From Gemmatimonadota bacterium (GTDB taxonomy: Bacteria; Gemmatimonadota; Gemmatimonadetes; Gemmatimonadales; Gemmatimonadaceae): a DNA stretch of 42,114 nt. Location of the stretch: assembly GCA_003223455.1 (NCBI GenBank), contig QHVE01000046.1, positions 1 to 42,114 of the forward strand, read 5' to 3'. Numbering within the stretch: position 1 is the stretch's first letter; every line of letters starts with the position of its first letter. Below are positions 18,070-21,652 of this stretch, piece after piece. The position numbers were made by a program, and so were the translations under genes. Below the pieces are notes generated by a model. It saw only the letters and a list, made by a program, of their open reading frames with translations, was not told the origin of the DNA and did no database searches.

Positions 18070-20733
18070 CTACGACGTCAGCAACGGCGCGAGCCGCGCC
18101 AGCGCGCCTGTCAGGTCCGGAATCTCGCTCAACACAGCATGCATCGGATCCGCACCGAGGCGCTCCATGCGGTCGATGGCATTGCGCATCGTGTAGTCCC
18201 GCGGATCCAGGCCGTCCACGACTTCGTCCCACTGCAGCGGCATCGACACCGTCGCTCCGGGCTCCGGACGAACGCTGAACGGCGCAACGATCGTCTGGCC
18301 GTGTCGGTTCTGCAGATAATCGAGATACACCTTGTCGCCGCGCCTCGTCACCTGACGCGTGATCGTCGCCACATCGCCGACTTCGCGCAGCATGACGCGC
18401 GCGAGCAGCTCGCCGAGGGTGCGCGACTGCTCGTACGTGCACAGGCGGCCGAGCGGCACGAGGACGTGCAGCCCCGTCTTGCCCGTCGTCTTCACGTAGT
18501 GCTGGAGCCCGATCTGCTCGCACAGCCGGTGCAGCACCTGCGCGCAGCGGATCACGTCGGAGAACGGCGCCTCTTTCGGATCGAGGTCGATCACGCACCA
18601 GTCGCATTGCTCGAGCGACCCGACGCTCGACGCCCAGACGTGAACAGGGATGCAGCCAAGGTTCGCGATGTAGAGCAGGGAATCCTCGTCGTCGCAGACG
18701 AAGTACTTCACGGTGCGCTGGCTCTCCTCGCTCCAGATGGGATGCGTGCGGATCCACTCGGGCGCGAACTCGGGCGCATCCTTCTGATAGAACTGCTTGC
18801 CGTGGATGCCGTCGGGGAAGCGCGTCATCACCAGTGGGCGGTTTCTCAGGTACGGCAGCATCCATCCGGACACGGCGCGGTAGTAGTCGATCAGATCGCC
18901 CTTCGTATAGTTCTCGGCCGGCCAGTAGACCTTCTTGAGGTTGGAGAATGACGTGAGGTGCGGAGTCCTCGACTCCGCGCTTCGCGCTGCGCTCGGAATG
19001 ACGACTGTTGCCGTCATCCCGAGCGCAGTCGAGGGATCTGCACTTCCCGTCGTCATCCCGAGCGAAGTCGGGGGATCCGCACTCGGTGCTCTCGGCGCCC
19101 GCTCGCACTCATCCGGCCGCTTGTCGTCGCGGAGGCGCACGAAGGACGAGTGCCTCAGCAGCCCGTCCGGCGTGATGTCGCGGTACCGCACCTCGCACAC
19201 GTATCGCGGCTCGACCCATGTGGTGGTCGCCGTCTCGGGGATGCCTTCGCTCGGCAGCGGTGCCTGGCCCGGCGTGACGGCCATGCCGTGGCAGGGCGCA
19301 TCCCGCCGGATGTCGGGCGAGATCAGGGCGATGAGCTCCGCGAGCGTCGCGTCGTCCATCCCGGTGCCGACGCGGCCGACGTAGCACGGGTGGCCCTCGA
19401 CGAACTCCGCGAGCTGCAGCGCACCGATGAACGCGCGCGTGCCCTTTGGTTGCGTGTAGCCGACGATCACGAAATCGCCCGTGCGGTCGGCCTTGATCTT
19501 GAGCCAGCTGGCCGAACGACCGGCGGTGTATCTGCTCTGCGTATTCTTGGCGATGATCCCCTCGAGCCCGAGCTTCTCGACCTCGCGATACATCGCCTCT
19601 CCCTCGCGCGGTATGTAGTCGAGCCCCCGCACGGCGCCGAGCCGCGGGACGATCTCCGCCAGCAGCCGGCGGCGCTCGAGAAGTGGAACGTCACGCAGAT
19701 CGAAGTCCTCGAACGCCACGAGGTCGAAGGCGAAGAACGCCGCCGGCCGCTCCACCGCGGCCTGACGGATGTCGAGCGTGTTCGAGAGCCTGCCGCGCCG
19801 CTGGAGCTGGGCGAAGCTCGGCTTCCCCTGCGCATCGAGCACGGTGACTTCGCCGTCGAGGATGCAGGCGTCGTGCGGCAGTGCCTTCAACGCGCGCACG
19901 ACCTCAGGGAAGACGGCCGTGTAATCGATCCCATTGCGCGAGAGGAGCAGTACCTCGTGGCCCCGCTTAGCGGCGAGGATGCGGTAGCCGTCCAGCTTGA
20001 GCTCGAAGATCCAGTCGTCGCTCGTGAAGGCGTCGTCGCGCGACTCGGCGAACATGAGCTCCATCGAGCGCGGATCGACACGAGATTTCGGGGCGCCCGT
20101 CGCCGCCACGGCCGCGCGCAGCGTCGTCGCCGGCCGTTCGCCCGCCTTCACCTGCTCCACGGTGAGCCCCGAGAGCACCGACGTCTCGTCGAACTCGTCG
20201 CCCGGCGACTTCACGAAAGCGTCGCGCTCCTTGAGCAGGAGCCAGTCCTTCTCGCTGCGCTTCGTCTTCACCAGCGCCCACTTGCCGCGGAGCTTGTATC
20301 CCTTCAGCTCGAACGCGAGCTTCCCTTTCTCCAGTCCTTCCCGCCAATCCTCCAGCGGCACCCACTCGCCGCGGTCCCACACGATGATCCCGCCGGCGCC
20401 GTAGTTGCCCTCGGGGATGATCCCCTCGAAGTCACCGTACTCGATCGGATGATCCTCGACGCGCACGGCGAGGCGCTTGTCGGCCATGTCGTACGACGGA
20501 CCTTTCGGCACCGCCCACGATTTGAGCACGCCGTCCATCTCCATCCGCAGATCGAAGTGGAGATGACTCGCTGCATGCTTGTGCACGACGAACAGCCGCC
20601 CGGGGACGACCGAGACGGTGCCGACCGGCTCCGGCGATGAATCGGGGGAGCGCTTGGCGCGATATCCGGCGAGGCTGTCCACCGTCTGAGCCGGAGTTTC
20701 TTCGGGTCGCGGAGGGTCACCTTGTCGTGGCAT
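18070..20733 (-). CDS. ligD: ATP-dependent DNA ligase D (NHEJ), phosphoesterase-ligase-polymerase
   Basis: The 887-residue protein has the three LigD modules in the order phosphoesterase, ligase, polymerase. The 3'-phosphoesterase (about 40-185) shows HKHAASHLHFDLR and HPIEYGDFEG. The ligase domain carries the adenylation motif FELKLDGYR with nucleophile Lys246, then DGEV and EGIIAK, and an OB-fold to about residue 530. The primase-like polymerase (about 597-880) has catalytic Asp716 and Asp718 in IDLDP. LigD with Ku fills, trims and seals double-strand breaks. The ligase-polymerase linker (about 551-592) is encoded by three copies of a short repeat and reads SADPPTSLGMTTG, SADPSTALGMTAT, then an inverted copy. 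This linker is unlike the rest of the protein but keeps the frame. It is divergent from ku, with 109 bases between start codons. Confidence 0.96.
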   Translation of the reverse strand: MPRQGDPPRPEETPAQTVDSLAGYRAKRSPDSSPEPVGTVSVVPGRLFVVHKHAASHLHFDLRMEMDGVLKSWAVPKGPSYDMADKRLAVRVEDHPIEYGDFEGIIPEGNYGAGGIIVWDRGEWVPLEDWREGLEKGKLAFELKGYKLRGKWALVKTKRSEKDWLLLKERDAFVKSPGDEFDETSVLSGLTVEQVKAGERPATTLRAAVAATGAPKSRVDPRSMELMFAESRDDAFTSDDWIFELKLDGYRILAAKRGHEVLLLSRNGIDYTAVFPEVVRALKALPHDACILDGEVTVLDAQGKPSFAQLQRRGRLSNTLDIRQAAVERPAAFFAFDLVAFEDFDLRDVPLLERRRLLAEIVPRLGAVRGLDYIPREGEAMYREVEKLGLEGIIAKNTQSRYTAGRSASWLKIKADRTGDFVIVGYTQPKGTRAFIGALQLAEFVEGHPCYVGRVGTGMDDATLAELIALISPDIRRDAPCHGMAVTPGQAPLPSEGIPETATTTWVEPRYVCEVRYRDITPDGLLRHSSFVRLRDDKRPDECERAPRAPSADPPTSLGMTTGSADPSTALGMTATVVIPSAARSAESRTPHLTSFSNLKKVYWPAENYTKGDLIDYYRAVSGWMLPYLRNRPLVMTRFPDGIHGKQFYQKDAPEFAPEWIRTHPIWSEESQRTVKYFVCDDEDSLLYIANLGCIPVHVWASSVGSLEQCDWCVIDLDPKEAPFSDVIRCAQVLHRLCEQIGLQHYVKTTGKTGLHVLVPLGRLCTYEQSRTLGELLARVMLREVGDVATITRQVTRRGDKVYLDYLQNRHGQTIVAPFSVRPEPGATVSMPLQWDEVVDGLDPRDYTMRNAIDRMERLGADPMHAVLSEIPDLTGALARLAPLLTS
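18958..19002 (-). repeat. Interspersed repeat copy A (long form, inverted relative to B and C) inside ligD
   Basis: Read on the reverse strand it begins GTCATTCCGAGCGCAG and ends TCGAGGACTCCGCAC. Between them is a 14-base insert with a GCGCGAAGCGC palindrome, absent from copies B and C. Together with B it can form a long stem. It lies in frame within the ligase-polymerase linker of LigD. Confidence 0.8.
19013..19043 (+). repeat. Interspersed repeat copy B inside ligD
   Basis: A 31-base unit starting GTCATCCCGAGCGCAGTCG and ending GGGATCTGCAC. It matches copy C at 28 of 31 positions and copy A in inverted orientation. B and C are spaced by exactly 39 bases (13 codons), so the protein shows a 13-residue tandem repeat. 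Confidence 0.85.
19052..19082 (+). repeat. Interspersed repeat copy C inside ligD
   Basis: A 31-base unit starting GTCATCCCGAGCGAAGTCG and ending GGGATCCGCAC, a direct copy of B. On the reverse (coding) strand of ligD it encodes part of SADPPTSLGMTTG. Confidence 0.85.
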
Positions 20734-20755
20734 CTTCGTCTGTCAGTCGCCTGTT

Positions 20756-20774
20756 GAGGTGCGGAATCCTCGAC
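20756..20774 (-). repeat. Degraded repeat fragment between ligD and ku
   Basis: Read on the reverse strand this is GTCGAGGATTCCGCACCTC. It differs by one base in 19 from the end of repeat copy A plus its flanking CTC within ligD. A possible far end (CGCTCGGAAC) lies near 20807-20816. It sits in the divergent ligD/ku promoter region. Confidence 0.6.
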
Positions 20775-20842: not shown

Positions 20843-21652
20843 ATGCCGCCACGCTCGATCGCCAACGCCACCATCTCGTTCGGTCTCGTCTCCGTCCCGG
20901 TGAATCTCTACTCGTCCGCCGAGTCGAAGACGAGTGTGTCGTTCAATATGCTGCACAAGAAGTGTGGGGGGCGGCTGAAGCAGCAGTACATCTGCCCCAA
21001 GGACAACAACGAAGTGGTCGGCCGCGACGAAACGGTCAAGGGCTACGAATTCGCCAAGGACCAGTATGTCGTCTTCTCCGCCGAGGAGATCAAGGCGGTG
21101 GAGGAGAAGGCGACGAACATGATCGACGTCATCGAGTTCATCCCTCTCGCGCAGGTACAGCGCGAGTACCTCGACAAGGTCTACTTCCTCGGCCCGGACA
21201 AAGGGGGCGAACGGGCCTATCGGCTCCTCTGCGAGGCGCTGATGCAGACGGGCCGTGCAGCGCTCGGTCAGTACGCCGCGCGCGGCAAGCAGAACCTGAT
21301 TCTCATTCGCCCCGTGAACGGCATCCTTGCGATGGAGTGCCTTCACTACGCGGATGAGGTACGGTCCACGACCGACGTGCCCGTGCCCGACGGCGAGGTG
21401 AAGCCACTCGAGCTGGCGCTGGCGAAGCAGCTCATCGAGGCGGCCGCGAACGATGCATTCGAGCCGAGCAAGTATCGCGATACGGTGCGCGATCGCGTGA
21501 TGGAGACGATCCAGCGCAAGGTGGACGGTCAGGACATCACGACGGATCTCGCCGTCGACGGCGGGAGCAAGGTGCTCGACCTGATGGAAGCGCTCAAGGC
21601 GAGCCTCGCCGGCGTGCAGAAGGACGCGGACGCCAAGGTGAAGGTCTCGTAG
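20843..21652 (+). CDS. ku: Bacterial Ku, DNA-end-binding protein of NHEJ
   Basis: The 269-residue protein begins MPPRSIANATISFGLVSVPVNLYS, the conserved Ku core start, followed by HKKCGGRLKQQYICPKDN, VKGYEFAKDQYVVFSAEEI and FLGPDKGGERAYRLLCEALMQTGRAALGQYAARGKQNLILIRP. Ku forms a homodimeric ring that threads onto broken DNA ends and recruits LigD, encoded divergently next door. The length is normal for the family; there is no long Lys-rich C-terminal tail of the type some Ku proteins use to bind DNA. The two cysteines near residues 41 and 50 are not enough for a zinc site alone. The ATG at 20843 is chosen by homology to the family start; an in-frame extension of 28 residues upstream is unlike Ku. 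A 7-bp hairpin follows the stop. Confidence 0.96.
   Translation: MPPRSIANATISFGLVSVPVNLYSSAESKTSVSFNMLHKKCGGRLKQQYICPKDNNEVVGRDETVKGYEFAKDQYVVFSAEEIKAVEEKATNMIDVIEFIPLAQVQREYLDKVYFLGPDKGGERAYRLLCEALMQTGRAALGQYAARGKQNLILIRPVNGILAMECLHYADEVRSTTDVPVPDGEVKPLELALAKQLIEAAANDAFEPSKYRDTVRDRVMETIQRKVDGQDITTDLAVDGGSKVLDLMEALKASLAGVQKDADAKVKVS

Follow-up and report, generated by a model that had tools for sequence, protein, structure and literature searches.

How does a repeat that lies mostly between genes come to be read in frame as part of a DNA repair enzyme, and what has kept it there? The question is raised by ligD on contig QHVE01000046.1 of assembly GCA_003223455.1, from a Gemmatimonadota bacterium of the Gemmatimonadaceae, of which we analyzed a stretch of 42,114 nt (the window). 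In this gene most of the linker between the ligase and polymerase domains is coded by copies of a short palindromic repeat. We consider it highly probable that an interspersed element resembling repetitive extragenic palindromic (REP) sequences was captured in frame in the LigD linker and kept since this linker is tolerant. The window genome (G000) is a draft of 127 contigs and 4.96 Mb, its close relatives carry the titles Gemmatimonadetes or Gemmatimonadaceae, and all genomes compared are drafts and metagenome-derived assemblies, in which genes were called with our own simple codon-usage gene caller.

Repeat copies within the LigD linker

A preliminary description of the locus had recorded two direct copies and one inverted copy of a repeat within ligD, and repeat comparison recovers all three (Table 1). 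The direct copies B and C are 33 nt each, 91% identical and spaced by 39 nt, and they code for a 13-residue tandem peptide, ADPPTSLGMTTGS / ADPSTALGMTATV, between the ligase and polymerase domains, as had been described. Together the three copies code for residues 551-594, which account for 44 of the 57 linker residues. The pattern GTCATCCCGAGCGNAGTCGNGGGATC, with up to 3 mismatches allowed, has 2 matches in the window compared with 0.00 expected from shuffles.

Despite this occupation of the linker, the gene is open over its 887 codons and has the features of a LigD, with ligase, polymerase and phosphoesterase domains recognized by Pfam, an intact KLDG motif in the ligase domain (invariant K246, D248 and G249 present), an intact DLDP motif in the polymerase domain, and ku as its divergent neighbor and partner in nonhomologous end joining. 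The earlier view that the frame is kept and the domains are intact therefore stands: in sequence, both enzyme domains are unaffected by the repeat stretch, and the repeat-bearing protein is probably functional. Residues 547-592 have AlphaFold pLDDT (predicted local distance difference test) values below 50 and are predicted to be disordered. We propose that a head-to-head pair with one extra direct copy of the dispersed palindromic element would have entered ligD as DNA and would have been retained because the copies landed in the disordered spacer between ligase and polymerase and left the reading frame open; translated as spacer, the repeat would yield a disordered tether joining intact domains. 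Neutral capture is the mode that we favor for this ligD, in which the coded peptide and the predicted mRNA stem would both lack a selected role.

The CGTC ends of copies A and B point toward each other, and the strong mRNA stem that had been anticipated for this pair is indeed predicted, the repeat stretch folding at -80.7 kcal/mol compared with -54.3 in shuffles (z -6.7). Folding far better than shuffles is a point in favor of an alternative in which the hairpin itself is selected, with an mRNA (or DNA) stem that makes ribosomes slow down so that the domains fold one at a time, adjusts expression of the polymerase domain, or forms a G-quadruplex; any strong stem would suffice, so that different repeats could be recruited. 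We regard selection of the hairpin as unlikely; further evidence on it is discussed below with the sister-clade linkers.

Table 1. Positions of ligD, its domains, its repeat copies and neighboring or related features (window coordinates unless a locus is named)
Feature	Position	Strand	Evidence
Repeat copy A (inverted, longer variant), residues 578-594	18954..19003	-	repeat comparison, BLAST
Repeat copy B (direct), residues 564-574	19012..19044	+	profile from non-ligD copies, E 8.5e-12
Repeat copy C (direct), residues 551-561	19051..19083	+	repeat comparison, pattern, BLAST
A/B stem, 17-nt arms (18987-19003 / 19012-19028), 94% complementary, 8-nt loop	18987..19028		
Interdomain linker, residues 539-595 (57 residues)	18949..19119	-	protein alignment
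ligD, 887 aa, phosphoesterase - ligase - (linker) - polymerase	18070..20733	-	reading frame open throughout
LigD_N phosphoesterase domain, residues 51-156	20266..20583	-	Pfam PF13298, 1.6e-42
ATP-dependent DNA ligase domains, residues 236-538	19120..20028	-	Pfam PF01068, PF04679
LigD primase-polymerase (Prim-Pol) domain, residues 610-863	18145..18906	-	Pfam PF21686, 8.9e-87
ku	20843..21652	+	own gene call; Pfam PF02735, 5.1e-48
G207 example loci with in-frame heptad arrays	L219:1335-2714; L207:1289-2353; L212:3-773; L215:987-3101		

Close to ligD, in the upstream region on the ku side, there is also a 20-nt fragment resembling copy A (95%; 20755..20774, + strand), a weak match with E 0.10.

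A dispersed element near the CGTC-tagged REP type

Copy numbers in G000 were taken from genome searches, among them the genome-wide count that the preliminary description had proposed. BLAST with the linker DNA returned 46 pieces at E <=10, ∼20 of them with E < 1e-5, and the strict pattern matched 24 times, its reversed control not once. Of 26 distinct places, 18 fall between genes, 2 touch a gene edge and 6 are within genes, which bears out the expectation that repeats of this type are normally intergenic; with ∼90% of the DNA coding, the element is strongly depleted in genes (binomial p ∼1e-15). Besides ligD, internal copies occur in genes for a LysE-type exporter (in a loop), a CtaA-type protein (at the C terminus) and a Y-family DNA polymerase-like protein, and in two further genes named from sequence only, for a repeat protein (C-terminal tail) and a protease-like protein (N terminus). 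Intragenic copies sit mostly at a linker, loop or terminus. A chance or artefactual origin, in low-complexity coding DNA or misassembly with no dispersed element, has the draft state of the genome in its favor; we find it scarcely credible and already contradicted, given the absence of expected matches in shuffles, the dispersed copies, the intact frame and the like behavior of independent genomes.

Two of the intragenic loci are of interest in themselves. The in-frame copy in the Y-family DNA polymerase-like (ImuB-like) gene (L003, G000:C70:58528-58618) places the element in a second gene of DNA-repair type, and in the LysE-type exporter (L006, G000:C86:10014-10098) a head-to-head repeat pair is read in frame.

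The features of the element recall the CGTC-tagged REPs, which are defined by a CGTC, TGTC or CCTC end, an 8-9-bp stem starting with AT, a loop of 4-5 nt, a CCA-fitting unpaired tail and a predominance of head-to-head dimers (PMC3733652). At one end, the units in G000 have CGTCATCCCGAG in copies B and C, and elsewhere in the genome they have CGTC or TGTC; the stem of a single unit starts with AT (ATCCC/GGGAT); and head-to-head dimers predominate, the A/B pair, L003, L004, L006 and L011 having facing CGTC ends and L014 being reversed. As in the described REPs, copies are mostly intergenic, with some in frame in genes, notably repair genes, and no dedicated transposase lies beside them (PMC3733652). 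The element is probably near this type. In contrast to the defined 8-9 bp, however, a single G000 unit forms a stem of no more than 5 bp, supplemented by G-A mismatches that flank GC pairs, and there is no CCA tail, the copies running on into CTGCAC or CCGCAC. Because the stem is shorter than defined (PMC3733652) and the tail is absent, we call the element REP-like rather than a member of the REPs.

The presence of elements resembling REPs or Rickettsia palindromic elements (RPEs) inside DNA-repair genes is already known. Intragenic CGTC-tagged REPs in such genes have been described, with an excess there that is unexplained (PMC3733652), and the LigD and Y-family polymerase-like genes of G000 join that excess. 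That work does not name Gemmatimonas; it lists a REP in one DNA ligase gene but does not describe a single linker that is occupied repeatedly. Like the element described here, RPEs are palindromic repeats that lie in frame in conserved genes and are apparently tolerated (PMC2229807); they are 105-146 bp long and Rickettsia-specific, whereas the G000 element consists of short units of unrelated sequence read in several frames.

A REP-associated tyrosine transposase (RAYT) as the mover of the element was considered and rejected, since the presence of a Y1 transposase does not track repeat abundance. The 3.3-kb locus of the one Y1 transposase of G000 holds no copy of the element, and the repeat-rich relatives G041 and G235 have no Y1 transposase. 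The RAYT-mobilized GTAG REPs do not describe it either, there being no GTAG end and no repeat-flanked RAYT. Rfam gave nothing credible (best, mir-1289, E 0.36, far below the cut-off), and a search of open-licence papers by repeat sequence returned unrelated papers only.

Recurrence in the linkers of relatives

We gathered ligD genes across the order, cut the linkers from a protein alignment and kept the genes of the 80 distinct linkers (209 kb in total, of which the linkers make up 5.3%). A profile of the element built from 15 G000 copies, with the ligD copies excluded, was run over these genes, and its 8 best matches all fall in linkers, from four genomes including G000. Eight LigDs carry the element in the linker (L031, L036, L039, L040, L042, L096, L099 and L113), as called by profile, strict pattern, own-genome BLAST or eye (L036 mainly by eye), and a ninth, L033, does so doubtfully. 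Most of the host genomes are also rich in the element: strict-pattern matches number 56 in G041 and 73 in G235, and the G001 linker as query returned 64 BLAST pieces in G001 and 68 in G006, compared with 4 short ones in the repeat-free G004. Different frames and orientations are translated, giving for example SADPSTALGMT in G000, EQVLRSAQDDT in G006, ARHPERSEGSA in G041 and GVIPRERKRPRD in G235. Capture is recurrent in relatives, with differing reading frames and repeat types, and each occupation of the linker would represent an insertion or a conversion that passed the filter of tolerance. A quick tree, computed with the linker left out and with some poorly supported branches, requires at least 6 changes of the linker element trait. 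One linker of one repair enzyme over 80 genes amounts to a countable natural experiment on where dispersed repeats survive in genes and on their rates of arrival and turnover. In L119 (G253) the linker repeat is of a further type, with direct GCGCAAAGG/GACGCGAAGG-like units that code for SAKDAKGAKG.

These data also bear on the possibility that the peptide is what is selected, the Ala/Pro/Ser/Thr-rich segments coded by repeats setting linker length or flexibility and being positively retained. Repeat-filled linkers stay open and that of the window is predicted to be disordered, as this explanation would have it, but sequence, frame and length vary widely (linkers in the sample range from 29 to 78 aa) and one repeat is read in several frames, and we judge selection for the peptide to be quite improbable.

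That the window's repeats were inserted and tolerated at a flexible linker, as first suggested, is supported by the dispersed copies, the predicted disorder and the nearest relative, whose LigD (73% identical protein) has a linker of 40 aa without the repeat. Nor is the same linker conserved in distant LigDs, which would have spoken for ancestry: those of other orders of the class are mostly ∼30 aa and lack these repeats. The preliminary description had expected a shorter, repeat-free linker in related genomes to prove insertion. Such a linker is found in the nearest relative, but the proof from length fails and was rejected, because repeat-free linkers of the same family reach 78 aa; it is the DNA match to dispersed copies that speaks for insertion.

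Several observations weigh against capture under simple tolerance. With repeat-free linkers equally long elsewhere, some repeats may have taken the place of linker sequence instead of lengthening it; support for the element copies in G003 and G005, which are degenerate, is weak; the tree count does not separate gains from losses; at 73% protein identity the nearest relative is not close enough to give an exact empty site, and no target-site duplication was identified. In a sister clade, moreover, a linker hairpin persists with concerted change, which simple tolerance would not lead one to expect.

Heptad hairpins in a sister clade

In the sister families most linkers contain inverted heptanucleotide arrays, in which a G-rich arm is followed by its C-rich complement. 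A period of 7 is found in 30 of the 80 linkers, whereas only 1 of the 80 genes shows it in the remaining sequence; any other period occurs in 0-4 linkers, and the window's own linker is below the heptad threshold (period-7 score 7). The heptamer varies by species (GGGATGC, GGGAAAC, GGGAGGC, GGGGACG, GGGCTCG and others), and L111 and L130, which are 92.1% identical outside the linker, nevertheless differ in the heptamers of both arms. Enrichment of the linker heptamer in its own genome was seen for GGGATGC (p 0.0008) and, more weakly, for GGGGACG (p 0.018); for GGGAAAC, in genomes whose linker carries it, enrichment was not significant (p 0.09).

Several findings favor selection of the hairpin. 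In 38 of 80 ligD genes the linker, on average 5.3% of the gene, holds the top-scoring gapless inverted repeat found anywhere in that gene; arms are complementary within and not across species (mean match 12.95 with the own partner versus 6.55 with other species, 0/2000 permutations), also within the genera g17 and g52; all 24 LigDs of one clade retain heptad arrays despite differing heptamers (L127, with a score of 8, is just below the threshold); and among the 29 linkers whose inverted repeats are strongest, 14 have a four-G-run motif. However, many LigDs of the same family are stemless, as are those of other orders, and like arrays in intergenic DNA and unrelated genes point to a genome-wide repeat process. 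Both a DNA process (slippage with template switching or conversion) and stem selection are compatible with the sister-clade data, and these hairpins make homogenization by a DNA process versus selection of coding palindromes testable.

In two long relative contigs (358 kb), the linker hairpins are the strongest inverted repeats wholly within a gene. Over 373 kb of G207 (three whole contigs), 20 of 31 period-7 arrays lie inside genes, as do 14 of 20 loci in a set selected for GGGATGC arrays, and Pfam-confirmed array genes include PurL, E2 acyltransferase, uracil-DNA glycosylase, QueA, RsmB, methylmalonyl-CoA mutase, EPSP synthase, FtsK and ObgE. GGGATGC / GCATCCC arrays are in frame in G207 loci L200-L219, where a single gene often contains both arms. 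At one site in AroA (L232-L238) the heptamer is species-specific (GCATCCC, GTTTCCC, GGCTCCC or GCCTCCC) with nearly constant protein length; the AroA of G033 has no heptamer there. Because this site swaps heptamers with almost no change in length, the AroA arrays are not simple insertions, an origin that we rejected. An orthologue search for heptad-bearing genes among the contigs collected recovered ligD alone. Tentatively, we raise as a real possibility that the ligD linker of this one clade is a long-lived coding hairpin with both heptad arms rewritten together between close species, from a set of heptamers that is in part specific to the genome and recurs in AroA, ObgE, QueA, FtsK and PurL, and that coding DNA is edited in concert by an active process, be it template switching, slippage with conversion or stem selection.

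Such turnover is less ordinary than the presence of repeats in repair genes. The GGGAATC and GGGGA(C/T)T heptads of Xanthomonas and Nostoc likewise form G-rich arrays of 7-nt units, frequently paired in inverted orientation, in conserved places with changing sequence and G-quadruplex potential (PMC4692102), but they are strongly biased toward non-coding DNA, whereas the sister-clade heptads are often in frame in conserved genes and differ between close species. Inverted repeats in coding DNA with the protein preserved are also known from the mitochondria of Nematomorpha (PMC6649704), where the palindromes are long and perfect, in contrast to the short, bacterial repeats of the LigD linker. Two species (G220:C31:131495-131554 and G208:C57:4620-4679) have a second inverted repeat in ligD, located within the polymerase domain and with 14-nt arms GGAGCGAGGACTCG.
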